From the NCBI RefSeq assembly GCF_001418685.1, contig NZ_LIVM01000004.1:62001-126000 (forward strand): DNA of 64,000 bases, given 5' to 3'. Source of the DNA: Apibacter mensalis (lineage in GTDB: Bacteria; Bacteroidota; Bacteroidia; Flavobacteriales; Weeksellaceae). Below the pieces are notes generated by a model. It was given only the letters and a program-made list of their open reading frames with translations, did no database searches and had not been told where the DNA came from. Both the position numbers and the translations under genes were made by a program. This document shows, one piece after another, positions 8,801 through 41,806 of this stretch; position 1 is the first letter of the stretch; each line of letters opens with the position of its first letter.

Positions 8801-9880
8801 GTGCGTAAAATAATTCATATAGATATGGATGCATTCTATGCTTCAATAGAGCAAAGGGATCATGAAGAATTTAGAGGAAAACCTTTGGCCGTTGGATTTT
8901 CAGGAGAAAGAGGAGTAGTAGCAGCAGCCAGTTATGAAGCAAGAAAATTTGGGGTTCATTCAGCAATGTCCTCCAAACAAGCAATTCAACGGTGTCCGAA
9001 TCTAATTTTTACTTCCGCACGATTTGAAATTTATCGTTCTGTTTCAAAACAAATAAGGAATATTTTTTTTCAATATACAGATTTAGTAGAACCTTTATCT
9101 TTTGACGAAGCATTTTTAGATGTGACTAATAGTTTGAAAAATAAGGAATTTGCCAGGGATATTGCTAAAGAAATTAAAGATAAAATTTTTAAAGAAACAG
9201 GGTTGACAGCCTCTGCCGGTATATCATTTAATAAATTTCTTGCAAAAATAGCTTCGGATTATAATAAACCTGATGGATTATTTATAATTACTCCACAAAA
9301 AGCAGAAAAATTTGTTGAAAATCTTAGAATTGAAAATTTTTTTGGAATAGGTAAAAAAACAGCAGAAAAAATGCATCAGTTGGGAATAAATACCGGATGG
9401 GACCTTAAGCAAAAATCTGAAGAAGAACTTATTAAACTTTTTGGTAAACAGGGGAGTGTATATTATTTAAATGCCAGAGCAATAGATAACAGGGAAGTTA
9501 ATCCCAATAGGATACGGAAATCAGTAGGATCAGAAAATACATTGATGGAGGATACAAATTCTTTACCTAAATTATGTTCTGAATTAGATTCCATCTGTAG
9601 AGACGTGTTACAAAGAATGAATAAAATTTCTTTTAAGGGTCGAACAGTTATTTTAAAGATTAAATATTCAGATTTTAAAGTAATTTCAAAAAGTAAAACT
9701 ATTACAAGTTTTATTACTGATTTCCCTCTGTTATATAAAATTGCCTTAGAATTACTATATACTGTCAATATAGATAAAAAAATTAGGTTAATTGGAATAA
9801 GTATTAAAAATTCTAAATCCGAATTAATGGAGGATATGCAGAAAAATTTTCAGTTAAAAATTCCTTTTAAAGATTTTTAA
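8801..9880 (+). CDS. dinB: DNA polymerase IV
   Basis: A Y-family translesion polymerase of 359 residues. The GTG start gives MRKIIHIDMDAFYASIEQRD, which aligns with the canonical N-terminus and carries the first catalytic Asp. Other landmarks are VAAASYEARKFGVHSAMSS (fingers), PLSFDEAFLDVT (catalytic Asp-Glu pair), ASAGISFNKFLAKIASD (palm), and FFGIGKKTAEKMHQLGI (helix-hairpin-helix thumb), followed by a little-finger domain. The C-terminus (about residue 345 onward) is short and I see no clear beta-clamp peptide. It copies damaged DNA in the cytoplasm. No LexA-type operator is recognisable upstream. Confidence 0.95.
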   Translation: MRKIIHIDMDAFYASIEQRDHEEFRGKPLAVGFSGERGVVAAASYEARKFGVHSAMSSKQAIQRCPNLIFTSARFEIYRSVSKQIRNIFFQYTDLVEPLSFDEAFLDVTNSLKNKEFARDIAKEIKDKIFKETGLTASAGISFNKFLAKIASDYNKPDGLFIITPQKAEKFVENLRIENFFGIGKKTAEKMHQLGINTGWDLKQKSEEELIKLFGKQGSVYYLNARAIDNREVNPNRIRKSVGSENTLMEDTNSLPKLCSELDSICRDVLQRMNKISFKGRTVILKIKYSDFKVISKSKTITSFITDFPLLYKIALELLYTVNIDKKIRLIGISIKNSKSELMEDMQKNFQLKIPFKDF

Positions 9881-10216: not shown

Positions 10217-10879
10217 TTAAATGATTCCTAACTCAATTATTAAACTTAATAATTGTTTAGTATCTTTAGCGTTAAAAGAAGCTCTTAACAAGGCAAGTCT
10301 CTTTTCAATAGAGCTCTCGCTGTTAGGTACTATTTGTTTCTCTTTTAAGTGGTGTTCAACCTCTTTTTGGGTATACCCTTGAGAAAGCAATTTTAACAAG
10401 TTGATATCATACTCCGTTAATTCATATAAATTGTTTTGAGCTGATTTGTAATTATCATTGGAAATATAGGTCTCATTTTGGTTTACAGATATTATGGCTT
10501 TTTGTAATTCTTTTGTATCATTTCTTCCCTTAGTAACATATCCATTAATTTTATATCTGTCAAACATAGATTTTATTTTATGAAACCTGTTTTCAATCGA
10601 AAAAACTATAACTTTAAGGTCGGCTTGTTCATTTTTTGCTGCAAGTATTAAATCTTCTCCACTTTCTAGTGTTTGTACTCTGTAATCCGAAGCAAAAGAC
10701 AAATCGGTTATTAACAAATCATAAGGTTGATGATCTATAATTGCTCTTTTAATTTTCAACAATGCTTCATCGCAATAAAAAGCTTGGTCAATAATTGGAA
10801 TTTTTAATTCCTCAACAGTTTTTTTAACCCCTATATTATAACTGTCAAAATCCTCAGAAATAAGTATTTTTTTAAACAT
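10217..10879 (-). CDS. Response regulator (REC plus LuxR-type HTH)
   Basis: A 220-residue NarL/FixJ-like regulator. The receiver domain spans residues 1 to about 125, with acidic residues near ILISEDFD, the probable phosphoacceptor Asp59 in LLITDLSF, the switch residue region VIVFSIEN, and the conserved Lys in GYVTKGRND. The C-terminal domain has a degenerate LuxR-type helix-turn-helix (LTEYDINLLKLLSQGYTQKE, then SSIEKRLALLRASFNAKD). It starts 10 bases after the stop of the sensor kinase gene, so it is the cognate partner. The targets are unknown. Confidence 0.85.
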   Translation of the reverse strand: MFKKILISEDFDSYNIGVKKTVEELKIPIIDQAFYCDEALLKIKRAIIDHQPYDLLITDLSFASDYRVQTLESGEDLILAAKNEQADLKVIVFSIENRFHKIKSMFDRYKINGYVTKGRNDTKELQKAIISVNQNETYISNDNYKSAQNNLYELTEYDINLLKLLSQGYTQKEVEHHLKEKQIVPNSESSIEKRLALLRASFNAKDTKQLLSLIIELGII

Positions 10880-10888
10880 TAGTATAAA

Positions 10889-12727
10889 TTAGATTGAAAT
10901 AATAATTTTTATTGCTAAGCCTATCTTTTTTTCGTGATCGATAAAAAAACTTCCCTGTATCGGATTTAATCTATCTTTTATGTCTTTTAAATCTTTGTTA
11001 GGGATACCACCTGACCCTGCTAAACCTACCCCATTATCTGAATATTCAATCGAAATTATAGAGTCTTCATTTTTAAATTTTAATGTAACAATATCGGCTT
11101 GGCTGTGTTTTTTCATGTTAGTCATTAATTCTTTAAGAATATAGTATATTTCTTCCTTTTTATCATCAGAAATATTTTCCCAGATATGAGGTTCATTACC
11201 AATTAATATAATTCGTGTATTTTTTGCACCGTAAGGTTTTATCATGTTTCGTAAAGTAATTGAAAACTCTTCTTTAGAATCTATTTTAAATTCAGCATCA
11301 TGAGAAATATCCCTGGATTTATGATATAATATTTCTAATTCATCAATTATTTTAGTGGGTTTTGCATCAGAATTATTTTCAAGTTGTACCATCAAAAAGT
11401 AAATTCCATTAGCAACTTCATCGTGAATCTTTTTAGAATATTTCAATTTTGTTCTATGTACTTCTTCGATTTTTTCTTGTCTGAATTTAGCTTTTCTTCT
11501 TCGATACCAAAATATTAATAATATTAGAATTAAAATGGTAAGACATGTTGCAGAACCAAACATAACTTTTTGTTTTAGTAAAAGGTAGTTTTTTTGAGCA
11601 TTTTCAGCCTTCAATAAGGCATTCTCTTCTTTGTTTCGTTCTACTTCATAACGTATTAAAGCAAACTGATTTTTAGCTTGAGTTCTTTTTAAATTAATTT
11701 TATCACTTAACTTAATATATGCATTAAAATAATTTTTTTCATGAGTCGAAGGGGTGTCCAACAGAATAATTTTTTGCATCGCTGCCAATTGATCATCTAT
11801 ATTACCCAGTTTTAATGCGATATCATACATTTTATTTGCATGGAAAATTGCCTTTTTAATACTTGTTTTTTCGAAATATTCCGATAAATGATAATGATTA
11901 GCTATTTGTCCGATGGTATCGAATGCTTTTTTTCTTATTTCTAAGGCTTGGTAAAAGTCTTTATCTGCCTTGTAGTTTGAGTTAAAAAGCCATTTAGCAT
12001 AAGCTAAGTTATCAGTTATACGTGCTTGAAGAAGGGGGCGATTATTTATAAATGGATCTTTGCTTAAATTCGTTAAAATTTGTATGGCATTATTATAATT
12101 TCCGGCTTTAATATTTACCACTGCACCATTGTTCTTTATGTTAATTTCAGATATCTTATTAGTTGAAAAATTCAAAGCCAAATTATAATATTTTATTGCT
12201 TGATCATAATCTTTTTGTTCGGTTTTAGATATTGCAAGACAATTATATACAGCAGATAATGATGTGTTATTTTGAGAATTTTTAATATATTTTAATGCTT
12301 CAACAGCTGTTTCTTCGCTTCCTATGTAATCTCCCTCATTAGCTTGGATGATTGCCATATTAATTAAGCTTTTGCCGATAAATATATTATTATTGTTATT
12401 ACTATTATTGTCAATTGAAAAAGCTTCTTTCGCATGATTAAAATAATAAAATGCGCTGTCACTTCTATTTTTATTTAAATAATAATGCCCCATTTGAAAA
12501 TATATATTGGCCAACATTAAATTATTTTTAATTTTTTTTAGCTTATATATCTGCTTATAAGTATATTGAATGGATTCATTGGTATAGTTATTAAAAGAAA
12601 TAGTTTTAATTTTTGATAATTTAATTGAATTATCAGATTTTTTTTTCCGTAAGGTAAAATCCTTGCAGGAAGGGAAGTAAAGTAATAAAATAATAGTGTA
12701 GGATAAAAATATAATAAAAGTTTTCAT
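10889..12727 (-). CDS. TPR-containing sensor histidine kinase
   Basis: A 612-residue membrane-anchored kinase. An N-terminal lipoprotein-like signal (Cys21 in YFPSC) is followed by tetratricopeptide repeats over about residues 65-345, a coiled segment at 350-385, one membrane helix (389-407) and then the cytoplasmic kinase. His435 in KKIHDEVANGIYFL is the phosphorylation site (HisKA_3-like). The ATPase domain shows the N-box ELMTNMKKHS (Asn537) and G-box EYSDNGVGL. Periplasmic TPRs with a NarX-type kinase are a common Bacteroidota architecture. It phosphorylates the regulator encoded just downstream. The sensed signal is unknown. Confidence 0.88.
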   Translation of the reverse strand: MKTFIIFLSYTIILLLYFPSCKDFTLRKKKSDNSIKLSKIKTISFNNYTNESIQYTYKQIYKLKKIKNNLMLANIYFQMGHYYLNKNRSDSAFYYFNHAKEAFSIDNNSNNNNNIFIGKSLINMAIIQANEGDYIGSEETAVEALKYIKNSQNNTSLSAVYNCLAISKTEQKDYDQAIKYYNLALNFSTNKISEINIKNNGAVVNIKAGNYNNAIQILTNLSKDPFINNRPLLQARITDNLAYAKWLFNSNYKADKDFYQALEIRKKAFDTIGQIANHYHLSEYFEKTSIKKAIFHANKMYDIALKLGNIDDQLAAMQKIILLDTPSTHEKNYFNAYIKLSDKINLKRTQAKNQFALIRYEVERNKEENALLKAENAQKNYLLLKQKVMFGSATCLTILILILLIFWYRRRKAKFRQEKIEEVHRTKLKYSKKIHDEVANGIYFLMVQLENNSDAKPTKIIDELEILYHKSRDISHDAEFKIDSKEEFSITLRNMIKPYGAKNTRIILIGNEPHIWENISDDKKEEIYYILKELMTNMKKHSQADIVTLKFKNEDSIISIEYSDNGVGLAGSGGIPNKDLKDIKDRLNPIQGSFFIDHEKKIGLAIKIIISI

Positions 12728-12929: not shown

Positions 12930-13328
12930 TTACCATACCGGTATTTGCGCAGTTTCTCCGCTAATATCCATTCTTCTAACGGGATTTTGTGCAGTTTCCC
13001 CGCTAATATCCATTTTTCTAACGGGATTTTGTGCAGTTTCTCCGCTAATATCCATTCTTCTAACGGGATTTTGTGCAGTTTCCCCGCTAATATCCATTTT
13101 TCTAACGGGATTTTGTGCAGTTTCTCCGCTAATATCTATTTTATAAAGTTTATTTCCTTGATTTTCTGAATTATTTTCCCCTGTATTTGTATTATTAATT
13201 AATGTTGCTTCAGTAGCGCTATCTGCTGAGAATGACTTTTGCATTGGAATATCATTATAATCGTCGCTGCATGACACTATAAATAAGCTTAAAAATAAAC
13301 TTAATACGGATATTGATATTTTTTTCAT
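12930..13328 (-). CDS. Small lipoprotein with five tandem 14-residue repeats
   Basis: A 132-residue secreted lipoprotein: signal peptide MKKISISVLSLFLSLFIVSC with lipobox Cys20, then a Ser/Asn/Thr-rich linker to about residue 60, then five consecutive units of consensus (K/R)MDISGETAQNPVR running to the C-terminus, where the last unit ends IPVW. The ATG and signal peptide make this strand the coding one, although the multiple-of-three repeat keeps other frames open as well. The gene stands alone with its own terminator. The family is not recognised. The repeats could form a binding surface or a solenoid-like stalk, or a substrate displayed at the cell surface; all of these are guesses. Confidence 0.8.
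   Translation of the reverse strand: MKKISISVLSLFLSLFIVSCSDDYNDIPMQKSFSADSATEATLINNTNTGENNSENQGNKLYKIDISGETAQNPVRKMDISGETAQNPVRRMDISGETAQNPVRKMDISGETAQNPVRRMDISGETAQIPVW
12949..13140 (-). repeat. 42-bp tandem repeat array (4.6 units, two identical 84-bp dimers)
   Basis: Units begin at 12949, 12991, 13033, 13075 and 13117, each 42 bp long. They alternate between two versions (TCTCCG/CTTCTA and TCCCCG/TTTCTA), so 12949-13032 and 13033-13116 are identical 84-bp blocks. This points to a recent duplication of a dimer inside the coding region of the lipoprotein. Confidence 0.92.
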
Positions 13329-13422: not shown

Positions 13423-13490
13423 GGGAAGCATGGAATAATAGGCAGCAGATTAATAGGCTTCCCATATCTATTGATATGCTGCTACTTTTT
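13423..13490. other. Interlocked inverted repeats, possible pseudoknot RNA
   Basis: Stem A pairs GGGAAGC (13423-13429) with GCTTCCC (13457-13463). Stem B pairs GGCAGCA (13441-13447) with TGCTGCT (13477-13483; last pair G-T). Stem B starts inside the loop of A and closes outside it, which is pseudoknot geometry. A third hairpin, CATATC-TATT-GATATG, lies at 13463-13478. On the plus strand a T6 run follows (13485-13491). It sits between divergent genes. It could be a leader element, a small RNA or a protein-binding site; the transcribed strand is not known. Confidence 0.45.
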
Positions 13491-13514
13491 TATTCCTTAT
13501 TAGAATACATTTAG

Positions 13515-13522: not shown

Positions 13523-13579
13523 CTATAAAATATACTAATAAAATTTAAATACAAATTAACTGATAATATAAAGCAAAAT

Positions 13580-13623
13580 AAAGACATATTATAGACTTTT
13601 TAAAGACATGTTATAAGTTTTAA
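13580..13623 (+). repeat. Tandem 22-bp direct repeat in the leader of the 13679 gene
   Basis: Two adjacent 22-bp copies start at 13580 and 13602. Their first 14 bases agree except for one (AAAGACAT then A or G then TTATA), and both end in a T-rich stretch. They lie between the -7 box at 13515 and the gene at 13679. They could be operator half-sites or RNA-binding sites for autoregulation. Confidence 0.5.
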
Positions 13624-13678: not shown

Positions 13679-13990
13679 ATGGGGTATAAAGAAGTAATAA
13701 AGAAAATAGTCTATATGGCCTTTAATAAGGCTAAAAAAGAATCATTACTTGTGTTAAAAACACCTCTTTCCAAACATATTTCTTATAAGATAGAAAAAGA
13801 ATATAAGACATGCATTAGTGAAAAGACATTTATAAGATATTATGATAAATATATAGGAGGAATAGATAACGCTACAGGTGAGCCAAACAGGTATATATTA
13901 GATCTATTATGTAAATATATTGGGTATGAAGATTTTGTAGATTTCTATAATAAAGAGGAAAATGAAAAAATAAAAAAGCAGGTAATTTAA
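13679..13990 (+). CDS. Small protein with a Bacteroidota HTH-like domain, unrecognised function
   Basis: A 103-residue basic protein. The middle reads LSKHISYKIEKEY, ISEKTFIRYYDKYIGG and RYILDLLCKYIGYEDFVDFY. This pattern of a short helix, a TF/L-R-Y/W element and an L-C-K-Y-I/L-G-Y-E-D/S-F/W-x-x-F ending resembles a small domain seen at the N-terminus of many Flavobacteriia proteins that looks like a winged or helix-turn-helix module. No signal peptide or membrane segment is present. It may be a DNA-binding regulator; the repeats in its own leader would be natural sites. It begins with ATG GGG, and the start at 13679 is the only good one. Confidence 0.65.
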   Translation: MGYKEVIKKIVYMAFNKAKKESLLVLKTPLSKHISYKIEKEYKTCISEKTFIRYYDKYIGGIDNATGEPNRYILDLLCKYIGYEDFVDFYNKEENEKIKKQVI

Positions 13991-14180: not shown

Positions 14181-15938
14181 ATGCCTGATATAATACACTT
14201 ACTTCCGGATAATGTATCCAATCAGATAGCGGCAGGAGAAGTAGTACAAAGACCTTCTTCTGTGGTAAAGGAACTTTTAGAAAATGCTATTGATGCAAAA
14301 ACAACTCAAATACAACTTATAATTAAAGATGCAGGTAGAAATTTAATTCAAGTAGTTGATAATGGAATTGGAATGAGCACAACTGATGCCAGAATGTCCT
14401 TTGAAAGGCATGCTACTTCAAAAATTACTACTACTGAGGATATATTTCATATTCATACAAAAGGCTTTAGAGGTGAAGCATTAGCTTCTATCTCAGCAGT
14501 TTCCCAGGTTGAATTGAAAACCCGTAAAGAAGAGGATGAAATAGGAACTCATATTATAATAGAAGGAGGCGAAATAATTTCCCAAGTCCCGATAAATACC
14601 GCAGTTGGTTCTTCATTTTTAATCAAAAATCTATTTTTTAATGTACCAGCAAGAAGGAAATTTCTTAAATCTAACTCGGTAGAATTCAGACATATTTTAG
14701 ATGAATTTCATAGGGTGGCATTAGCGCATGAAGAAGTTCATTTCCAATTATTTAATAATGGTGAAGAAATATTAAGGCTTCGTTCAGGAAGTTTAATGCA
14801 AAGAATATCTGAAATATTTGGCAGGAAAATTCAACATCAATTGGTACCTATTTCTGAGCAATTGGATTGGATAAAGCTAAGTGGCTTTATAGGTAAACCG
14901 GAAAGTGCTAAAAAAGCAAGAGGAGAACAATTTTTTTTCGTTAATCAAAGATTTTTCAGATCATCCTATTTAACTAAGGCTGTACAAGATGCATTCGAAG
15001 GATTGATTCCACCACGTTTTTTGCCTTCCTTTTTTCTTTATATAGATATTGATCCGGAAAGGATAGACGTAAATATTCATCCAACTAAGACAGAAGTAAA
15101 ATTTGAAGATGAGACATCTATATATGCATTACTAAAAACAGCTATTAAGAAATCTTTAGGTATATATAATATAGTTCCAAGCTTGGATTTTGATCAAAAT
15201 CCTGAATGGAGTTTTTCTCTGGCTAGAAAAGATAATCCTGTTGTAGAACCTAAAATAAATATTTGTACTACCTATAATCCATTCGATAAAATTCCTAATA
15301 AACCTACCGTTGAGGAAAAACTAAAGTTAAATGAATTATATACTTCGTCCAGGCAAGAAATTTTGACTTCGGATTTATTTGATAATTCTTTTGAAAATGC
15401 CAATGAATCATTATTATTGCGTTTATCTAATGGTAGATGGATAATTGAAAAAGATTCAAATTTATGGATTTTAGATCCCTATAGAATTCATCAAACTGTT
15501 TTATATGAAAATCGTATGAAAAATTTTAAGGGAAATGTATTAAGTCAACAATTATTGTTTCCAATAGAAAGACCCGTTTATGATCTTGAAAAAGAGAAAT
15601 TAGATTCAATTAAAACTTCATTATTTGCTGAAGGATTAGATATGGAGATAGAAGAAGATTTATTAACGATAACTGCAATTCCTTCGGATGTATTACAAGA
15701 AAAAATAATTGAATTGATAGATAATTTATTAAATGAATTATCAGAACATTCAGAAGAAGAATTTTCTATATTTTTTAGTAAAACAATTTCGAAAGTTTTC
15801 GCTAAAAAAAGAAAAGAATTTATACAGCCTTCTCATTTAATACCTTTATGGGAGAATTTTATAACTTTAGGATGTCCTAATTATAATCCTTTTGGAAAAA
15901 GAAATTATGAAATAGTAACCATGCCGAATTTTGATTAG
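14181..15938 (+). CDS. mutL: DNA mismatch repair protein MutL
   Basis: A GHKL ATPase of 585 residues that links MutS mismatch recognition to downstream repair. The N-terminus shows PDNVSNQIAAGEVVQRPSSV, ELLENAIDA (Asn/Glu of the ATP site), QVVDNGIGM, and TKGFRGEALASIS. The transducer domain has VNIHPTKTEVKF. The C-terminal dimerisation domain lacks the endonuclease motif: in place of DQHA(x)2E(x)4E it has DPYRIHQTVLYE, and the CPHGRP-type segment is CPNYNPFGKRN. It therefore probably cannot nick DNA itself. The ATG fits conserved family N-termini. Confidence 0.95.
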   Translation: MPDIIHLLPDNVSNQIAAGEVVQRPSSVVKELLENAIDAKTTQIQLIIKDAGRNLIQVVDNGIGMSTTDARMSFERHATSKITTTEDIFHIHTKGFRGEALASISAVSQVELKTRKEEDEIGTHIIIEGGEIISQVPINTAVGSSFLIKNLFFNVPARRKFLKSNSVEFRHILDEFHRVALAHEEVHFQLFNNGEEILRLRSGSLMQRISEIFGRKIQHQLVPISEQLDWIKLSGFIGKPESAKKARGEQFFFVNQRFFRSSYLTKAVQDAFEGLIPPRFLPSFFLYIDIDPERIDVNIHPTKTEVKFEDETSIYALLKTAIKKSLGIYNIVPSLDFDQNPEWSFSLARKDNPVVEPKINICTTYNPFDKIPNKPTVEEKLKLNELYTSSRQEILTSDLFDNSFENANESLLLRLSNGRWIIEKDSNLWILDPYRIHQTVLYENRMKNFKGNVLSQQLLFPIERPVYDLEKEKLDSIKTSLFAEGLDMEIEEDLLTITAIPSDVLQEKIIELIDNLLNELSEHSEEEFSIFFSKTISKVFAKKRKEFIQPSHLIPLWENFITLGCPNYNPFGKRNYEIVTMPNFD

Positions 15939-15975
15939 TAAAAATCCATTCAAAATAATTAAAATACTAAAAATA

Positions 15976-16755
15976 ATGAATAGAGCGATACCTACGGTAA
16001 CTAAAAATCTTTTACTATTAAATACCATATTTTTTATAGGAACATATATATTGTCCGTTCGCGGAATAGATTTAACGGTTATCTTCGGTGCATATTTTCC
16101 ACTTTCACCCAATTTTCATTGGTACCAAATCATTTCACATATGTTTATGCACGGAGGATTTACGCACTTTTTTTTCAATATGTTTTCATTGTGGATGTTC
16201 GGATCAGCTGTGGAACAATCCTTAGGACCCAAAAAATATTTGATACTGTATTTCGTTTGTGGATTAGGAGCTTTTGCTTTATTCAACATGGTGAATTATT
16301 TTGAATTTAAGCAAGTATATGATTCTTTAGTTTCTGCCAATGTTCCTTTAAATGAGGTAAGTAAATATGCGAAATTAAGTTATGAAATAACAAATAATAA
16401 TTTGGAACAAAAAGCATATGCCTGGTTAAATACTTTACCCAAAGGTACAGATCAATATGCAGCAAGTAAGCTTTATATAGATTTAGTTACTCCAATGGTG
16501 GGAGCCAGTGGAGCCATATATGGAATTTTAGTTGCCTTTGGAGTTATGTTTCCTAATTCTGTATTAATGTTAATTTTTCCCCCCATTCCTATGAAAGCAA
16601 AATATTTTATCCCAATCATGGTTTTATTAGAGCTTTACTTAGGACTACAGCAATCGCAGGGGGATAATGTTGCGCATTTTGCTCATTTGGGCGGAGCCGT
16701 TTTCGGATATTTTATGACCCGTCATTGGGTGAAAAACAGATATCGTTGGAACTAA
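15976..16755 (+). CDS. Rhomboid family intramembrane serine protease
   Basis: About 259 residues when started at ATG 15976 (MNRAIPTVTKNLLLLN), which matches family N-termini better than the upstream TTG at 15931 that overlaps mutL. Rhomboid hallmarks are HMFMHGGFTHFFFNMFSLW with the loop and membrane segment carrying accessory His residues, the catalytic serine in VGASGAIYGIL, and the catalytic His in HFAHLGGAVFGY. An insertion of about 60 residues separates membrane segments 2-3 from the GASG segment. It cleaves membrane proteins within the bilayer; the substrates are unknown. It is followed 9 bases later by a rhomboid-like gene. Confidence 0.92.
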   Translation: MNRAIPTVTKNLLLLNTIFFIGTYILSVRGIDLTVIFGAYFPLSPNFHWYQIISHMFMHGGFTHFFFNMFSLWMFGSAVEQSLGPKKYLILYFVCGLGAFALFNMVNYFEFKQVYDSLVSANVPLNEVSKYAKLSYEITNNNLEQKAYAWLNTLPKGTDQYAASKLYIDLVTPMVGASGAIYGILVAFGVMFPNSVLMLIFPPIPMKAKYFIPIMVLLELYLGLQQSQGDNVAHFAHLGGAVFGYFMTRHWVKNRYRWN

Positions 16756-34312: not shown

Positions 34313-35635
34313 ATGAGTAATACATTAATGATTTTGCTGGAATTTATAGTCGTACTGGCAGCCATATTTATCGGGGCGAGAAAAGGAGGTTTAGGGTTAG
34401 GTATTTTTGGTGGGTTGGGATTGGCTGTATTAGTTTTTGTTTTTAAGCTGAAGCCACAAAATCCCCCTATAGATGTAATGTTAATGATTGTTGCAGTAAT
34501 TACTGCGGCGAGTACCTTACAAGCAGCAGAGGGTATTGATTATATGGTAAATATTGCTGAAAAGCTTTTGAGAGTTTACCCTCCCGCAATTACCATAGTA
34601 GCCCCTGTTGTATCTTATATTTTTACAATTATTGCAGGTACCGGCCACATAGCTTATGCTTTGTTACCTATAATTTCAGAGGTAGCTACGGATGCCAAGG
34701 TAAGGCCGGAAAGACCATTGAGTATTTCAGTTATAGCTTCACAACAAGCAATAACAGCAAGTCCGATTTCAGCAGCTACGGCAGCTCTACTGAGCGTAAT
34801 TATGGTAAAAAACCCGGAATTAAGACTTACGGATATATTAATGATTTCAGTTCCTTCTACTTTAGTGGGAGTTTTAGTTGCCGCATTCGTACAAATGTTT
34901 ATAGGAGTTGATTTAGAAAAAGATCCTGAATATCGAAAAAGAATAAAAGAAGGCCTTTTAGAGATAAAAGAAAAAAGTAAGAAAACTAAAGTAAGTTCTG
35001 GAGCAAAATTATCAGTGATAATCTTTCTGATTAGTGTAATAGGTATAGTTGTGTTCGGATCAATAGATGGAATGAAGCCTACCTTCAATGGAGTACCCAT
35101 GGCAATGCCACATATTATAGAAATACTTATGTTGGCAGCTGCAGGATGTATAATAATATTTACTAAGACCAGTGTAGAAAAAATTGCTACAAGTTCAATT
35201 TTTTCTGCCGGAATACAAGCAGTAATAGCTATTTTCGGTATAGCTTGGATGGGTGATACTTTTTTTGGAGGAAATTTAGAATTTTTTAAAGGATTATTGA
35301 CTACCATGGTAACAGAATACCCTTGGACATTTGCAATAGCTTTATTTGTTATGTCTATTATGCTATTTAGTCAGGCAGCAACCGTACGGGCACTTATGCC
35401 ATTAGGTGTTTCCCTAGGTATTCCCATTCCTAGTTTAATAGCTATGTTTCCTGCGGTAAACGGATATTTCTTTATTCCTAATTATCCAACCATAGTGGCA
35501 GCAATAAACTTTGATCGTACCGGCACTACTCGTATAGGGAAATATGTAATCAATCATTCATTTCAATTACCGGGATTTATTGCAACCCTTGTAGCCGTTA
35601 GTGTAGGTTTTGGTTTAGCATATCTTATATTTTAA
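34313..35635 (+). CDS. dcuB: Anaerobic C4-dicarboxylate transporter, DcuA/DcuB family
   Basis: A 440-residue inner-membrane exchanger with about ten to twelve hydrophobic segments. LEFIVVLAAIFIGARKGGLG, AGTGHIAYALLPII, IASQQAITASPISAATAAL and PNYPTIVAAINFDRTGTTRIG are DcuA/DcuB signatures. The family exchanges aspartate, fumarate or malate for succinate during fumarate respiration. The gap of 35 bases to aspA implies one transcript. Choice between DcuA and DcuB is not possible from sequence alone, so the symbol is indicative. Confidence 0.92.
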   Translation: MSNTLMILLEFIVVLAAIFIGARKGGLGLGIFGGLGLAVLVFVFKLKPQNPPIDVMLMIVAVITAASTLQAAEGIDYMVNIAEKLLRVYPPAITIVAPVVSYIFTIIAGTGHIAYALLPIISEVATDAKVRPERPLSISVIASQQAITASPISAATAALLSVIMVKNPELRLTDILMISVPSTLVGVLVAAFVQMFIGVDLEKDPEYRKRIKEGLLEIKEKSKKTKVSSGAKLSVIIFLISVIGIVVFGSIDGMKPTFNGVPMAMPHIIEILMLAAAGCIIIFTKTSVEKIATSSIFSAGIQAVIAIFGIAWMGDTFFGGNLEFFKGLLTTMVTEYPWTFAIALFVMSIMLFSQAATVRALMPLGVSLGIPIPSLIAMFPAVNGYFFIPNYPTIVAAINFDRTGTTRIGKYVINHSFQLPGFIATLVAVSVGFGLAYLIF

Positions 35636-35670
35636 ATAAAAAACAACCGTAAAAAAATAATAAAAAAATT

Positions 35671-37071
35671 ATGTACAGAGTTGAAAACGATTTGATAGGA
35701 GATTTAGAAATTCCAGAAAGTGCATATTATGGAATTCAAACTCAAAGAGCAGTAAACAATTTTCATATAACAGGTGTAAAATTATCTAATTATCCGGAAT
35801 TAATCCAAGCTTTAGCTTATGTAAAATGGGCGGCAGCTGAAACTAATTGTGAATTGGGAGTTTTAGATGAAAATATCAAAAATGCGATTGTTCAAGCATG
35901 TCAGGAAATTATAGCCGGTAAATACAATAAAGAATTTCCAAGTGACGTAATTCAAGGAGGAGCAGGTACTTCAACCAATATGAATATTAATGAAGTGGTG
36001 GCTAATATAGCATTGGAGATTATGGGTCATAAAAAAGGAGAATACCAATTTTGTTCCCCTCACGATCACGTAAACCTTTCACAATCTACCAATGATGCGT
36101 ATCCGACGTCTATAAAATTGGCAGCGATTAATTCCAACATGGTCTTAATAGATCATTTAAAACAATTGATAGAATCTTTTCGTAAAAAAGGTAAAGAATT
36201 TATGCATGTTTTAAAAATGGGAAGAACGCAATTGCAAGATGCAGTTCCTATGACCTTAGGTCAAGAATTTGAAGCCTTTGCAGAAACACTAAGCGAAGAT
36301 GTTGAACGGCTGACTCAAAATTCTAATTTATTTTTAGAAATAAATATGGGCGCAACAGCCATTGGAACCGGATTGAATGCAATTCCAGGATATGCTGAAT
36401 TATGTGCTAAAAAATTAGCAGAAATAACTCAATTACCTTTTATATCAGCAAAAAATCTAGTAGAAGCGACCCCGGATACCGGATCCTATGTAATTTACTC
36501 ATCTGCTTTAAAAAGAGTTGCCATTAAACTTTCTAAAATCTGTAATGATTTAAGGTTATTATCATCTGGACCACGTTGCGGACTTAATGAAATCAATCTG
36601 CCGGCTATGCAACCAGGATCATCCATTATGCCGGGAAAAGTTAACCCTGTGATCCCGGAAGCAATGAATCAAACTTGCTTTAAAGTGATAGGAAATGACT
36701 TAACAGTTACTATGGCAGCTGAATCCGGTCAACTTCAGTTAAATGTGATGGAGCCGGTTATTGCTTATAGCTTATTAGAATCTGTTCACATTTTAATGAA
36801 TGCAATGGACTGTTTACGTATAAATTGCATAGATGGTATCACAGCTAATGAGCAACATTGTAAAGACATGGTATTAAACAGTATAGGGATTGTTACTGCA
36901 TTAAATCCATATATAGGATATAAAAATAGTACTAAGATAGCTAAAGAAGCATTAGAGAAAAATTTAAGTGTTTATGATTTAGTTCTTGAGAATAAGCTTT
37001 TATCGAAAGAAAAGTTAGATGAAATATTAAACCCGCAAAATATGCTGGGACCGCATAAGTATAAAGACTAA
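35671..37071 (+). CDS. aspA: Aspartate ammonia-lyase
   Basis: A fumarase/aspartase superfamily enzyme of 466 residues that deaminates aspartate to fumarate and ammonia. It shows YRVENDLIGDLEIPESAYYG at the start, GGAGTSTNMNINEV, the substrate-site STNDAYPTSIK, GRTQLQDAVPMTLGQEF, and the mobile signature loop GSSIMPGKVNPVIPE with the catalytic Ser. The N-terminus and the GTSTNMN spacing favour aspartase over fumarase, and the neighbouring aspartate genes agree. It would supply fumarate as an electron acceptor. Confidence 0.94.
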   Translation: MYRVENDLIGDLEIPESAYYGIQTQRAVNNFHITGVKLSNYPELIQALAYVKWAAAETNCELGVLDENIKNAIVQACQEIIAGKYNKEFPSDVIQGGAGTSTNMNINEVVANIALEIMGHKKGEYQFCSPHDHVNLSQSTNDAYPTSIKLAAINSNMVLIDHLKQLIESFRKKGKEFMHVLKMGRTQLQDAVPMTLGQEFEAFAETLSEDVERLTQNSNLFLEINMGATAIGTGLNAIPGYAELCAKKLAEITQLPFISAKNLVEATPDTGSYVIYSSALKRVAIKLSKICNDLRLLSSGPRCGLNEINLPAMQPGSSIMPGKVNPVIPEAMNQTCFKVIGNDLTVTMAAESGQLQLNVMEPVIAYSLLESVHILMNAMDCLRINCIDGITANEQHCKDMVLNSIGIVTALNPYIGYKNSTKIAKEALEKNLSVYDLVLENKLLSKEKLDEILNPQNMLGPHKYKD

Positions 37072-37081
37072 AATAACAGTG

Positions 37082-37116
37082 AAGAGCAATTGAAAAATCA
37101 ATTGCTTTTTCTTTTT
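37082..37116 (+). terminator. Intrinsic terminator of the dcuB-aspA operon
   Basis: A 9-bp stem AGCAATTGA/TCAATTGCT (37085-37106) with an A4 loop is followed by TTTTTCTTTTT; it lies about 15 bases after the aspA stop. Confidence 0.85.
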
Positions 37117-37181
37117 ATGGTATAAATAAAATCTAACAGAAAATATCGAACATAATATAAATGTTAGCACAGAGGAGTTTT

Positions 37182-37196
37182 TTAATCATTGATTAA
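37182..37196. promoter_or_regulatory. Perfect palindrome TTAATCATTGATTAA upstream of aspT
   Basis: Two 7-base half sites flank a central T. It lies about 135 bases before the aspT ATG in the only gap between the two aspartate operons. It resembles an operator; its TGAT half site recalls Crp/Fnr recognition but the spacing does not match the classic TTGAT-N4-ATCAA. Confidence 0.45.
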
Positions 37197-37330
37197 GAAT
37201 AGGAAAAATAAATCCATTTTATTGGCATATTAATTGTACTTTATGAAGAGTTATTTAATGGGATAAAAATAATATTTTCTTTTTTTTGTCACTAATTAAC
37301 TTTAAAAATATTTATTTAAAAACAAGATAT

Positions 37331-39034
37331 ATGGAATGGATTTTAAAAACTATTCAAAGCTCTTCTGAATTAGCTATTTTTCTCACTTTAGCTTTAGGAT
37401 TTGCAATAGGGCAAATAAAAATTAAAGGTTTTAGTTTAGGATCAGTTACAGGCGTCCTATTAATGGGTGTATTAATTGGACAACTGGATATTTCCATTTC
37501 ACCTACCGTTAAATCAGCATTTTTTCTTCTGTTTTTATTTGCGGTTGGATATAGCGTAGGTCCACAATTCGTACACGGATTGAAAAAAGAAGGATTACCG
37601 CAAATTGCATTTGCCGCTTTAGTATGTGTATCTTGTTTATTAGTTGGGTGGGTTGCAGCAATTATTGCAGGTTTTGATATGGGAAATGCAGCAGGATTAT
37701 TAGCCGGAGCTAATACCATATCAGCTGTAATTGGAGTAGCCTCCGATACGATAAATCAGTTAAATATAGATTCTTCCCATAAGCAACAATTAATTAATCA
37801 AATTCCTGTAGCTTACGCGGTAACCTATATTTTTGGAACAGCAGGAACTGCTTGGTTTTTATCATCCATAGGTCCTAAACTTTTAGGAAAAGATATCATA
37901 GAGGAAACTAAAAAATATGAAGAATCTTTAGGGGGGGCTATACAAGATGATGATTCAAGCTTAGAATATGCTTATGACGGAGCAACTTTTAGAGTAATTA
38001 AAGCCAGTAGTTCTTTTTTTAATCAAAAACGAACTGTTCAAGAAGTTGAAGATTTATTGGTAGACAAAGGATGGCCGGTTTATGTTGAAAAAATTAGGAC
38101 AACATCCAGCAATGAAATTATTTCAGATCCAACTCCCAATACAACTATAAATAAAGGAGATAAGATGGTTTTGAACGGACCTTTAGATACCATACTCTCT
38201 GATGAAAATCTGGTTGGTAAAGAAGTTATAGATTTGGAGCTGTTGGATTTTAAAGTGGAAAATTTAAAAGTAATGGTTGCCAATAAAGAAATAATAGGAA
38301 AATGTCTGCATACCTTAAAATATAATAAAAATAGACACGGAATAGTCATATTAAAAATACATAGAGGAAAAACAACAATTCCTTTATTAAAAAATGTAAC
38401 GATTCAAAGAGGAGATGTTATTGAAATAGAAGGTAGAAAAGCTGATGTGGATAAATTTGCAACCTATTTGGGATATCCTGAAAGACCCACTAATGTTACA
38501 GATATTTTGTATATAGGATTGGGTATATTTTTAGGAGGAATATTAGGTTCTTTATCAATCCGTATCGGAAACATTCCGTTAAGTTTAAGTGCCAGTGGAG
38601 GCGTTTTAATTATGGGGATTATTTTCGGGTGGTTGAGATCATTACGCCCTACATTTGGATATATCCCTGCACCCTCTATATGGCTAATGAACAATTTAGG
38701 TTTGAATATGTTTATTGCTGTAGTAGGAATAAATGCCGGACCCGATTTTATTTCTGGATTGAAAACTGCCGGGGTAAGTTTATTTATAGCAGGAATATTT
38801 GTAAGTATTGTACCTATGCTTATAGGTATTTTATTGGGAAGATATGTATTTAAATTTAATCCGGCCATTACCTTAGGAGCTTGTGCAGGAGCTAGAACTA
38901 CCACAGCTGCTTTAGGAGCTTTAGAAGATACATTACAAAGTAAAGTTCCGGCATTGTCTTATACAACTACTTATGCCGTCGGCAATACACTACTTATTAT
39001 ATGGGGAGTAGTAATTGTTTTGTTAATGAGCTAG
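37331..39034 (+). CDS. aspT: Aspartate:alanine exchanger (AspT-like)
   Basis: A 567-residue inner-membrane antiporter of the AAE family. ATG 37331 (MEWILKTIQSSSELAIFLTL) is preferred to the frame start at 37286. Two membrane halves (about 1-190 and 395-567) flank two TrkA-C (RCK_C) domains in the middle (about 200-380), the standard AspT layout. LFLFAVGYSVGPQF in the first half and VGINAGPDFISGLK in the second are the paired pore segments. It would import aspartate in exchange for alanine; together with the decarboxylase encoded next this yields proton motive force. Confidence 0.88.
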   Translation: MEWILKTIQSSSELAIFLTLALGFAIGQIKIKGFSLGSVTGVLLMGVLIGQLDISISPTVKSAFFLLFLFAVGYSVGPQFVHGLKKEGLPQIAFAALVCVSCLLVGWVAAIIAGFDMGNAAGLLAGANTISAVIGVASDTINQLNIDSSHKQQLINQIPVAYAVTYIFGTAGTAWFLSSIGPKLLGKDIIEETKKYEESLGGAIQDDDSSLEYAYDGATFRVIKASSSFFNQKRTVQEVEDLLVDKGWPVYVEKIRTTSSNEIISDPTPNTTINKGDKMVLNGPLDTILSDENLVGKEVIDLELLDFKVENLKVMVANKEIIGKCLHTLKYNKNRHGIVILKIHRGKTTIPLLKNVTIQRGDVIEIEGRKADVDKFATYLGYPERPTNVTDILYIGLGIFLGGILGSLSIRIGNIPLSLSASGGVLIMGIIFGWLRSLRPTFGYIPAPSIWLMNNLGLNMFIAVVGINAGPDFISGLKTAGVSLFIAGIFVSIVPMLIGILLGRYVFKFNPAITLGACAGARTTTAALGALEDTLQSKVPALSYTTTYAVGNTLLIIWGVVIVLLMS

Positions 39035-39077
39035 CCCTTGAACATAAAAATTAGTAAAACAAAAAAAATAAAAAACG

Positions 39078-40718
39078 ATGGATATTTCTAAACTAAAAAC
39101 ATCTCGTCATAAAGAGCAGCAATTAGAGCAATTAAGCCCTTTTGAGTTAAAGAATGATTTGATTAAATTGGCCTCAGATCAACAAACTAAACCGACAAGA
39201 ACCATGTTAAATGCAGGCCGTGGAAATCCTAATTGGACAGCAACCATACCTCGTGAGGCATTTTTTACCTTAGGTAGATTTGGAGTTGAAGAATGTAAAA
39301 GAACATTAGACAAACCGGAAGGTTTGGCAGGTATACCTGAAAAAAAAGGTATAGGTAAAAGATTTGAAGCATTTTTGGATAAAAATAAGGGACTACCCGG
39401 CATCGATCATTTAAAGAATACTTATAAATACGGAATTGAAAAACATGAATATGATCGAGACAGTTGGGCTCATGAACTGGCAGAAGGAATTATTGGAGAT
39501 CAATACCCAAGTCCGGTAAGGATGTTAAGGCACATAGAACCCATAGTTCATGATTATTTAATACAAGAAATGTGCGGAAATAGGCCGCAAAGAAGTGGAA
39601 AATATGATATTTTTGCAGTGGAAGGAGGAACAGCTGCCATGTGTTATATTTTTGATTCTTTAATGGAAAATTATTTATTAAGAAAGGGAGATCATATTGC
39701 TTTAGGAGTCCCTGTTTTTACCCCATATTTAGAAATACCGGAATTAAAGAGATATAACTTTAAAGTAACTTACATACATGGTACAGGTAAAAACAGCGAT
39801 GGAACTTCCAATTATCAATATCCGGATGAAGAATTGGATAAATTAGGGGATAAATCAATAAAAGCATTTTTCATGGTTAATCCTAGTAATCCTACCTCAG
39901 TTGAAATTTGCGATAAGAGCAGAAAATACCTTGTAAAAGTAGTTAAAAACCTCAATCCTAATTTAATGATATTAACGGATGATGTATACGGTACCTTTGT
40001 TCCTGAATTTAGTTCGTTAATGAACGAATTACCGCAAAATACACTTTGTGTATATTCATTCTCGAAATATTTTGGTGCTACAGGTTGGCGTTTAGGTGTT
40101 ATTGCTTTATATGAAGATAACGTATATGATAAAATGCTAAAAGCATTACCTGAAAAAGAAAAAGCTGAAATTTCAAAATTATATTCAAGTTTGACTTTAT
40201 ATCCTGAAAAACTTAAATTTATTGACCGATTAGTAGCCGACAGCCGTCAGGTTGCATTGAATCATACAGCGGGATTGTCCTCACCTCAACAAATTCAAAT
40301 GATGTTGTTTGCTTCGTTTGCATTATTAGATAAGGAAAATAAATATAAAAAAGTTTGTACTGACTTAGTAAAAAATAGATTTAATTTACTTTGGGAAGGA
40401 ATGAATATACCTGTTAAACCCGACCCTGAAAGAGCATCCTATTATTGTGAAATAGATATTCATGAATGGGCATCTAAAAATTACGATAAAGATTTTGTGA
40501 TCTTTTTAGAAAAGAATTTTGAACCGGTGGATATACTTTTCAGGTTAGCTGAAAAATCTTCCATAGTGTTGTTGAATGGGGGAGGTTTTGCCGGTCCTGA
40601 ATGGTCTGTCAGAGTATCGTTGGCAAATTTAGATGACAATGATTATACAATTATTGGAAAAAAGCTTTCTGAAACCATGTATGAATATGTAGAAGCTTGG
40701 AAAAATTCAAAAAAATAA
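39078..40718 (+). CDS. aspD: Aspartate 4-decarboxylase (AspD)
   Basis: A 546-residue fold-type I PLP enzyme that converts aspartate to alanine and CO2, consuming a cytoplasmic proton. Family features are MLNAGRGNPNWTATIPREAF near the start, VEGGTAAMCYIFDSL (cofactor phosphate region), FFMVNPSNPTS, LTDDVYGTF, and the PLP lysine in SFSKYFGATGWRLG. The length is that of dedicated aspartate beta-decarboxylases, longer than AspC. It begins 43 bases after aspT, and the pairing with an AspT-type antiporter supports the assignment strongly. Confidence 0.93.
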   Translation: MDISKLKTSRHKEQQLEQLSPFELKNDLIKLASDQQTKPTRTMLNAGRGNPNWTATIPREAFFTLGRFGVEECKRTLDKPEGLAGIPEKKGIGKRFEAFLDKNKGLPGIDHLKNTYKYGIEKHEYDRDSWAHELAEGIIGDQYPSPVRMLRHIEPIVHDYLIQEMCGNRPQRSGKYDIFAVEGGTAAMCYIFDSLMENYLLRKGDHIALGVPVFTPYLEIPELKRYNFKVTYIHGTGKNSDGTSNYQYPDEELDKLGDKSIKAFFMVNPSNPTSVEICDKSRKYLVKVVKNLNPNLMILTDDVYGTFVPEFSSLMNELPQNTLCVYSFSKYFGATGWRLGVIALYEDNVYDKMLKALPEKEKAEISKLYSSLTLYPEKLKFIDRLVADSRQVALNHTAGLSSPQQIQMMLFASFALLDKENKYKKVCTDLVKNRFNLLWEGMNIPVKPDPERASYYCEIDIHEWASKNYDKDFVIFLEKNFEPVDILFRLAEKSSIVLLNGGGFAGPEWSVRVSLANLDDNDYTIIGKKLSETMYEYVEAWKNSKK

Positions 40719-40744
40719 AAAAATAAATTATAAATGATTTAACT

Positions 40745-41806
40745 ATGAAAACAAAAAATTTCAAAAATTTGTTGAATTTGTTTGTATTGTTTATCTTTAT
40801 AGCGGTAAATGCTCAGTACAAGCCAACTATTTACATTTTAGCAACAGGAGGAACCATAGCTGGGCAAGGGTCGTCTTCTGTAACACAGGCATATAAAGCC
40901 GGTTCCATTACAGTTGATGAACTTTTAAGCGCAGTCCCTTCGATTAAGGATATTGCTATTATTAAAGCAGAGCAAGTTGCAAATATTGGAAGTCAGGACA
41001 TGAATGACGATGTTTGGCTTAAATTATCGAAAAGAGTTAATGAATTGCTTAAGCAGAAAGATGTAGACGGAATTGTAATTACCCACGGTACCGATACACA
41101 AGAAGAGACAGCCTATTTTCTTAACTTAACAGTTAAAAGTAATAAGCCTGTAGTACTAGTAGGTTCTATGCGTCCATCTACTGCAATAAGTGCAGACGGA
41201 CCTAGAAATATTTACAATGCGGTTGCATGTGCAGCATCACCAGAATCATTAGGTAAAGGAGTAGTGGTGGTAATGGATGATAAAATTTTAGGAGCAGATG
41301 ATATTACAAAGACTCATACTCTTTCTGTAGGAACTTTTGAAGATCCAAACTATGGGAATTTGGGAATCATGTATAACGGAAAACCCATATACACGCGTGA
41401 ATCAGTAAAAAGACATACCATAAATTCAGAATTTGACATAACTAATATAACTAAGCTTCCAAGAGTTGAAGTAATTTTAAGTTATTCCAATGCTAAGTCA
41501 TTATTTGTAGACGCTGCAGTTAATGCCGGAGTAAGAGGAATTGTTACTGCAGGGGTAGGAAATGGAAACATTACCACCGACATGCAAAATGCACTAGCAA
41601 ATGCAGTAAAAAAAGGAATAGCAGTTGTGCGTTCATCCCGTATTTCAATGGGACCTACCGCACAATATGATGAGGTAGATGATGACAAATATGGGTTTAC
41701 AGCATCTTGGTATTTAAATCCATATAAATCCAGAGTATTGTTAATGCTTGCTTTAACCAAAACAAATAACTATAAGGAAATACAAAGAATGTTTACAGAA
41801 TATTAA
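40745..41806 (+). CDS. ansB: Type II L-asparaginase, periplasmic
   Basis: A 353-residue secreted enzyme with signal peptide ending VNAQ. The catalytic threonines lie in ILATGGTIAGQGSS and VITHGTDTQEETAYF, the second with the Thr-Asp-Lys triad completed by Lys in the following conserved block (VKSNKPVVLVGSMRPSTAIS). The type II form has high affinity and works in the periplasm, converting asparagine to aspartate and ammonia. It lies 26 bases after aspD and 5 bases before a porin gene, supplying aspartate to the operon's transport and decarboxylation steps. Confidence 0.94.
   Translation: MKTKNFKNLLNLFVLFIFIAVNAQYKPTIYILATGGTIAGQGSSSVTQAYKAGSITVDELLSAVPSIKDIAIIKAEQVANIGSQDMNDDVWLKLSKRVNELLKQKDVDGIVITHGTDTQEETAYFLNLTVKSNKPVVLVGSMRPSTAISADGPRNIYNAVACAASPESLGKGVVVVMDDKILGADDITKTHTLSVGTFEDPNYGNLGIMYNGKPIYTRESVKRHTINSEFDITNITKLPRVEVILSYSNAKSLFVDAAVNAGVRGIVTAGVGNGNITTDMQNALANAVKKGIAVVRSSRISMGPTAQYDEVDDDKYGFTASWYLNPYKSRVLLMLALTKTNNYKEIQRMFTEY

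Follow-up and report, generated by a model that had tools for sequence, protein, structure and literature searches.

A repeat lipoprotein of Apibacter mensalis as a putative multicopy ligand precursor for the adjacent TPR histidine kinase

Apibacter is a bee-gut bacterium. The window, by which we mean the whole stretch of 64,000 nucleotides of the A. mensalis genome that was analysed, contains on its minus strand a lipoprotein gene with a 14-residue repeat, followed by the genes of a TPR histidine kinase and a NarL/LuxR-like regulator. Peptide gene, sensor kinase and response regulator share one locus, as they do in peptide-pheromone two-component systems. The sequence-only reading of the repeat gene had overlooked the flanking kinase and regulator, a divergent gene, phased promoter boxes and a leader RNA, all of which are given here with the repeat itself.

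10217..10879, minus strand: response regulator, NarL/LuxR-like, with D59 (domain matches and alignment).
10889..12727, minus strand: sensor histidine kinase of 612 residues, with a lipobox-like N-terminus, a TPR superhelix at about 50-323, a transmembrane helix at about 390-408, H435 and HATPase.
12930..13328, minus strand: lipoprotein ORF of 132 aa, a putative multicopy ligand precursor, with lipobox IVSC-20 (Cys20) and a C-SDDYN motif resembling a surface-export signal.
12933..13142, minus strand: five 14-residue units with the core SGETAQ(N/I)PV, a putative ligand (repeat analysis and unit alignment).
13423..13496, minus strand: leader RNA pseudoknot, placed by eye and by analogy with Chryseobacterium leaders, in which P2 is formed by 13496-13477 with 13447-13432 and, again by eye, the loop GGGAAGC (13463-13457) pairs with GCTTCCC (13429-13423).
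13552..13559 (approximate), minus strand: candidate -7 element TTAATTTG, 3' of the boxes, from its likeness to TAnnTTTG.
13583..13608, minus strand: three TGTC/AGTC boxes with 11-bp spacing, a putative regulator-binding array.
13679..13990, plus strand: divergent 103-aa protein, sharing its intergenic region with the lipoprotein gene (comparison with relatives).

According to Tandem Repeats Finder, the array at 12944-13142 is by far the strongest tandem repeat in the window (period 42 bp, 4.7 copies, 94% matches, score 356), and the five units previously seen by eye are real; they lie at 13101-13142, 13059-13100, 13017-13058, 12975-13016 and 12933-12974. The two 84-bp dimers described as identical (12949-13032 and 13033-13116) indeed match at 84/84 positions. 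The motif (K/R)MDISGETAQNPVR, which had been ascribed to all five units, is exact in only three of them, because the first unit begins KIDIS... and the last one finishes ...IPVW. A recent expansion had also been claimed and is plausible, since the arrays of relatives at this locus range from 4 to 9 units; the description of the protein as a lipoprotein whose repeats stay in frame and vary in number is borne out. Placement of the repeats beyond the inner membrane is supported as well. The mature N-terminus C-SDDYN is similar, as a resemblance of sequence only, to SDDFE, the surface-export signal of F. johnsoniae (PMC5080379). A lipobox and an acidic motif after the Cys are thus found together, as in Bacteroidota surface lipoproteins, again at the level of sequence resemblance. 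The protein has no family in Pfam, NCBIfam or PADLOC; weak matches to SoxZ, CshA and NsnC were judged to be low-complexity chance, and a plasmid search found none.

One genome per species was compared in the genome collections. The order lipoprotein-kinase-regulator recurs in Apibacter, and the unit sequence is specific to the species: there are 4-9 copies, which are near-identical within an array and different between species. We found nine SGETAQNPVR units in G008, seven SGETGHVAAE units in G007, six SGELIQLPRR units in A. adventoris and four GGEQGHIPV-like units in A. muscae. G004 has seven or more SGETAQNPV-type units, with degenerate or decaying copies such as RKNTQNSI, and its copy number is a lower bound because the assembly breaks inside the repeat array (L006, at the end of contig C4, and the end of C20). 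When the units are aligned column by column, the core shows synonymous changes only, or none, in the G008 and G007 arrays, and the spacers between the cores drift in both sequence and length. Because the core is near-constant inside arrays and different between species, the unit evolves in concert inside a species and diverges between species.

The same unit alignment revealed no conserved processing site between units in the Apibacter arrays. RR/RK junctions are confined to the clade of G008, G004 and the window's own genome (G000), and Arg-Arg occurs in G002. Dibasic (Kex2-like) processing was rejected as a general rule because basic residues are missing between most units of G007 and because G003 has no dibasic sites. 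One further Apibacter genome, G001 (L027), retains kinase and regulator, and both the peptide gene and the TGTC array are absent from the 1.5 kb upstream; this species is a candidate eavesdropper. The divergent gene is absent upstream there as well.

With the regulator as query and one genome per species, 80 loci were collected, mostly from Chryseobacterium and also from Empedobacter, Cloacibacterium, Pedobacter, Epilithonimonas and one Flavobacterium. In Chryseobacterium, Empedobacter and Pedobacter the locus encodes a peptide of 50-80 residues with one single C-terminal unit, [TSG]G[END]TG[QH]xPP...; conserved C-termini are, for example, TGGNTGQTPPPFTNP, DTGGETGQTPPPKK and DTGGEGTHIPPKFP. 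This core peptide lies directly upstream of the TPR kinase in 70 of the 77 testable loci (66 matched the pattern and four more were recognised by eye), and a recognised peptide is missing beside the kinase in 7 of the 77. An adjacent gene for a predicted exported propeptide, sometimes multicopy, is also a property of RRNPPA-type systems. The short peptides have a hydrophobic start (MIQFILMLLGLAFSNNNANT...), which in Chryseobacterium is short, free of lysine and arginine, and no classical signal peptide. The same position is taken, in another family of the order, by small lipoproteins with C-termini such as DGPGDDPIVVPPPKK. The core pattern is rare among the 4,295 ORFs of the loci, MsrA aside; the motif CTGETGHAE of the Chryseobacterium MsrA (active-site TGETGH) was set aside as a decoy, that is, a conserved enzyme that is a neighbour by chance. 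Judged by these sequences, the Apibacter unit is the C-terminal core of the short peptides, multiplied. Because the locus of the sister genera encodes a single-copy peptide of about 60 residues, the unit, and not the array, is the likely conserved functional element. Several peptide paralogues with different cores occur at single loci, some beyond the kinase operon (L056, at 1957-2905 and 8872-9356; L108, L126 and L031).

The alignment of relatives shows no variation at kinase residue H435 or at regulator residue D59. The N-terminus of the kinase is lipobox-like, with Cys21 conserved in at least 90%, and one membrane helix separates the TPR region from the kinase domain; because of this start and this single helix, the TPR domain is probably extracytoplasmic. 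The TPR region of the window's kinase is predicted with a pLDDT above 90 across most of residues 50-323. Its closest matches among solved structures, in VIA-align, are the peptide-binding protein LGN (Z 25.0, rmsd 5.1 A, 303 residues), NprR (Z 22.8, 4.6 A, 302 residues), RapI (Z 22.1, 3.5 A, 267 residues) and a peptide-bound Rap with the competence and sporulation factor (Z 21.6). The Rap proteins overall give Z 20-22, and the alignments with LGN, NprR and Rap span 267-304 residues. The superhelix is of the peptide-binding kind, as in RRNPPA receptors; since TPR folds are common, these matches are a likeness of fold and say nothing of function. In a docking trial with AlphaFold, the stop codon of a Chryseobacterium peptide was translated (TAA=G), which gave an artificial fusion of the peptide with the TPR domain. 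The peptide was disordered in this model, with one island of raised confidence at residues about 66-80, which is the conserved core (pLDDT 75 for block 71-80 and under 50 for 8-65 and 81-91); conservation alone could produce such an island. Two tandem response-regulator genes stand behind one TPR kinase in L051, L063, L065, L067, L069 and others.

Core and TPR domain vary together. Across 64 loci, the pairwise distances of the core correlate with those of the TPR domain at 0.57 and with those of the kinase domain at 0.25 (over the analyses, 0.57-0.61 for core-TPR against 0.24-0.25 for core-kinase); the mean identity is 38% for the TPR domain and 64% for the kinase domain. In the 47 loci that have every segment, core and TPR domain (r 0.61) form a module apart from the remaining segments, namely the divergent protein, leader, peptide N-terminus, kinase domain and regulator, which are mutually correlated at 0.30-0.66. 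In the same set, the correlation is 0.18 between TPR and kinase domain, 0.15 between core and leader, and 0.45 between core and peptide N-terminus, so that the separation from the latter is a matter of degree. Once the five other segments are controlled for, core and TPR domain still have a partial correlation of 0.58 (p 0.0002), against 0.10 for the leader-TPR control, and the core follows the TPR domain more closely than the peptide N-terminus does (bootstrap difference 0.17-0.46). At the level of single residues, TPR position 280 is Thr in 24 of 28 cases beside Asn-type cores and His in 31 of 36 beside acidic cores. The kinase-domain tree implies about 21 changes of core type; over 12 independent supported pairs, residue 280 moved with the core in 8.2 and against it in 0.0 (p about 0.008). 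Every Apibacter core is of the acidic type (GE), and His stands at this position in the corresponding kinases. Co-varying TPR columns showed no significant enrichment in the concave A helices relative to the B helices (p 0.09). Several other TPR positions track the core type as residue 280 does, and because they change together with the core, exchange of whole core-plus-TPR cassettes is part of the explanation. The pattern is that of a ligand-receptor ("pherotype") signature: the ligand diversifies in step with the sensor domain and separately from the kinase domain, as it does in peptide-pheromone two-component systems.

Upstream of the peptide genes, TGTC boxes are spaced by 10-11 bp, and at least three are in phase at 28 of 64 genes, compared with 0.13% of shuffles. 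The array of the window, TGTCTTTAAAAAGTCTATAATATGTC, is the sole such match in the 2.33-Mb genome, and its natural reading is as the predicted binding site of the cognate regulator, which would imply autoregulation. The candidate -7 element was compared with TAnnTTTG, the Bacteroidota -7 consensus. Between the TGTC array and the peptide ORF lies a leader of about 230 nt, which contains a hairpin (GAAATCAG:CTGATTTC) and an H-type pseudoknot in which AAAACGGAGGA pairs with TCCTCCGTTTT and the loop TTGGGAAG with the downstream CTTCCCAA. In an alignment of 29 leaders, 92.9% of cells pair, and changes on both sides number 19, compared with 5.9 in shuffles; Chryseobacterium examples are L066:3816-3951 and L079:3816-3952. 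The leader model (R1) matches the leader of Apibacter G007 (E 8.6e-5) and, more weakly, sequences upstream of the small lipoproteins of L036, L038 and L044 (E 0.004-0.03). The window's own leader falls under the threshold of this model, its pseudoknot being kept by eye, and folds better than shuffles (z -2.4). Rfam gave no match for the leader, with only a sub-threshold mir-15 in the window and nothing in the relatives. The pseudoknotted leader is conserved across several genera and gives support, separate from that of the protein motif, to the view that the lipoprotein and the short peptides go back to one ancestral form. On the other side of the intergenic region, the divergent gene is kept at about 70 loci (e.g., L110:2787-3683, minus strand). 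The Chryseobacterium protein has about 285 aa, a membrane segment and a YMYWNGxxY-like C-terminal motif, and the Apibacter protein corresponds to the N-terminal domain only; it has no family in Pfam, NCBIfam or PADLOC.

We believe that the repeat core is the ligand of the adjacent TPR histidine kinase, in free or tethered form, with a probability of roughly 0.8 that overlaps with the likelihood we give to the other readings. This reading is built on synteny, on conservation of the core across arrays and genera, on core-TPR co-variation, on the unique promoter array and on the predicted TPR fold; a ligand was one of the options of the sequence-only reading, and it fits the comparative evidence. 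The lipoprotein is best read as a multicopy peptide-ligand precursor, functionally like the Phr/PapR-type peptides, in a Gram-negative two-component setting. It would be exported to the outer membrane, probably to the surface. The core (SGETAQNPVR in the window) would be presented or released and would reach the periplasm; for a lipoprotein displayed on the surface, this route requires release of the core and then its return across the outer membrane. We infer that the core then binds in the TPR groove of the kinase, which would signal through its response regulator. The regulator would bind the TGTC array and control both the peptide operon and the divergent gene, and the loop would therefore probably be autoregulatory. 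Amplification of the array in Apibacter would raise the dose of ligand per precursor. Whether the core is a secreted pheromone acting between cells is a question on which we put the odds at about even.

The most serious competitor, which we regard as possible and less likely, is that the intact repeat protein contacts the TPR kinase of the same cell in the style of QseG-QseE and reports lipoprotein traffic or envelope state, with no free peptide and no signal between cells. The repeat protein has a lipid anchor, the kinase has a lipobox too, no cleavage site is conserved between the units, and QseG activates QseE while staying in the outer membrane (PMC12691602). However, SDDYN is similar to a signal for export to the surface, where the repeats would lie on the wrong side; the short Chryseobacterium peptides are unlike anchored lipoproteins of the size of QseG; and the fast joint diversification of core and TPR domain is more readily reconciled with species-specific signals than with envelope sensing.

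Linkage alone, with adjacent DNA swapped as a block and products that never touch, is a doubtful explanation. The stretches for core and TPR region are direct neighbours, their correlation could be inflated by recombination that moves them as one block, and many TPR positions track the core together. However, the N-terminal part of the peptide, which touches the core, varies with the kinase domain (0.66) instead of with the TPR domain (0.29). The module also ends within the peptide ORF on one side and where the TPR domain meets the kinase domain on the other, boundaries that coincide with the functional ones.

A variable surface repeat was the original idea, and the surface-export-like motif and the in-frame repeats of varying copy number agree with it; we now consider it very improbable. 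The antigen or stalk is unsupported, as homologues in other genera are peptides of about 60 residues ending in one unit, linkage with the TPR kinase and regulator is constant, the core co-varies with the TPR domain, and the core is retained while the spacers vary. Equally improbable is a secreted antimicrobial, or a multicore peptide of the RiPP type, made under the control of the two-component system. Although multicore precursors occur among RiPPs and the peptide adjoins a two-component system, no modification enzyme, dedicated exporter or immunity gene was recognised in the neighbouring ORFs, there are no family matches, and the core co-varies specifically with the sensor domain.

The ligand-precursor reading has parallels in several known systems. 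The RRNPPA systems (Rap-Phr, PlcR-PapR, NprR-NprX and AimR) share with this locus a TPR receptor of similar superhelix, an adjacent propeptide gene and a C-terminal signal. However, RRNPPA receptors are cytoplasmic, Gram-positive and in need of peptide import, whereas in Apibacter the TPR domain is no stand-alone cytoplasmic receptor: it follows a lipobox-like signal, is joined through the membrane helix to a Bacteroidota histidine kinase as its probable extracytoplasmic sensor, and is served by a precursor that is a lipoprotein. Some RRNPPA propeptides contain the mature peptide as many as six times (PMC9765709). The architecture, as distinct from sensor homology, is that of FimS-FimR of Porphyromonas gingivalis, a Bacteroidota histidine kinase with a periplasmic TPR sensor joined to the kinase core, whose signal is unknown and for which a polypeptide ligand has been suggested (PMC11053733); no peptide gene has been described for FimS-FimR. 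In QseG-QseE, a lipoprotein gene is linked to the kinase that QseG controls (PMC12691602), but QseG acts intact and anchored through a C-terminal domain, and the Apibacter protein has short linear repeats.

As in AgrBDCA, ComCDE and ComQXPA, the peptide gene adjoins kinase and regulator, and the divergence of the ligand parallels that of the sensor domain and not that of the kinase domain. Unlike those systems, the Apibacter locus has a TPR sensor in place of a multi-pass membrane sensor of the AgrC/ComD type, and no AgrB/ComQ-type enzyme or dedicated exporter was recognised nearby. Yeast alpha-factor and neuropeptides likewise come from secreted precursors in which one peptide is repeated in tandem, but the Apibacter arrays are without conserved dibasic cleavage sites.

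Peptide quorum sensing is known mainly in Gram-positive bacteria and, to our knowledge, hardly in Bacteroidota, and among open-licence PMC papers we found no published description of a peptide for Bacteroidota TPR kinases. The locus points to an undescribed family of peptide signalling in this phylum. The fuller proposal is that Bacteroidota have a widespread family of species-specific peptide pheromones and extracytoplasmic TPR histidine kinases that sense them, whose types switch together, with the signal multiplied in a surface lipoprotein in Apibacter and a promoter-driven, undescribed pseudoknotted leader RNA; in our judgement it could be right or wrong with equal chance. If true, the pairs of Chryseobacterium, Empedobacter, Pedobacter and Apibacter would be a peptide language of the Bacteroidota's own, and TPR histidine kinases of unknown signal, such as FimS, would gain a concrete ligand model. 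The proposed ligands are short, linear and predicted for each species, which makes them directly testable.

Elsewhere in the window, a gene at 15931-16755 (plus strand), two genes away behind mutL, has by its sequence the look of a rhomboid-type membrane protease; it might bear on peptide release, or its proximity to the lipoprotein gene is possibly chance. At 34313-41806 (plus strand), an aspartate cluster was recognised by eye; it comprises a dicarboxylate carrier, an aspartase, an AspT-like exchanger, an aspartate 4-decarboxylase-like aminotransferase and an asparaginase.
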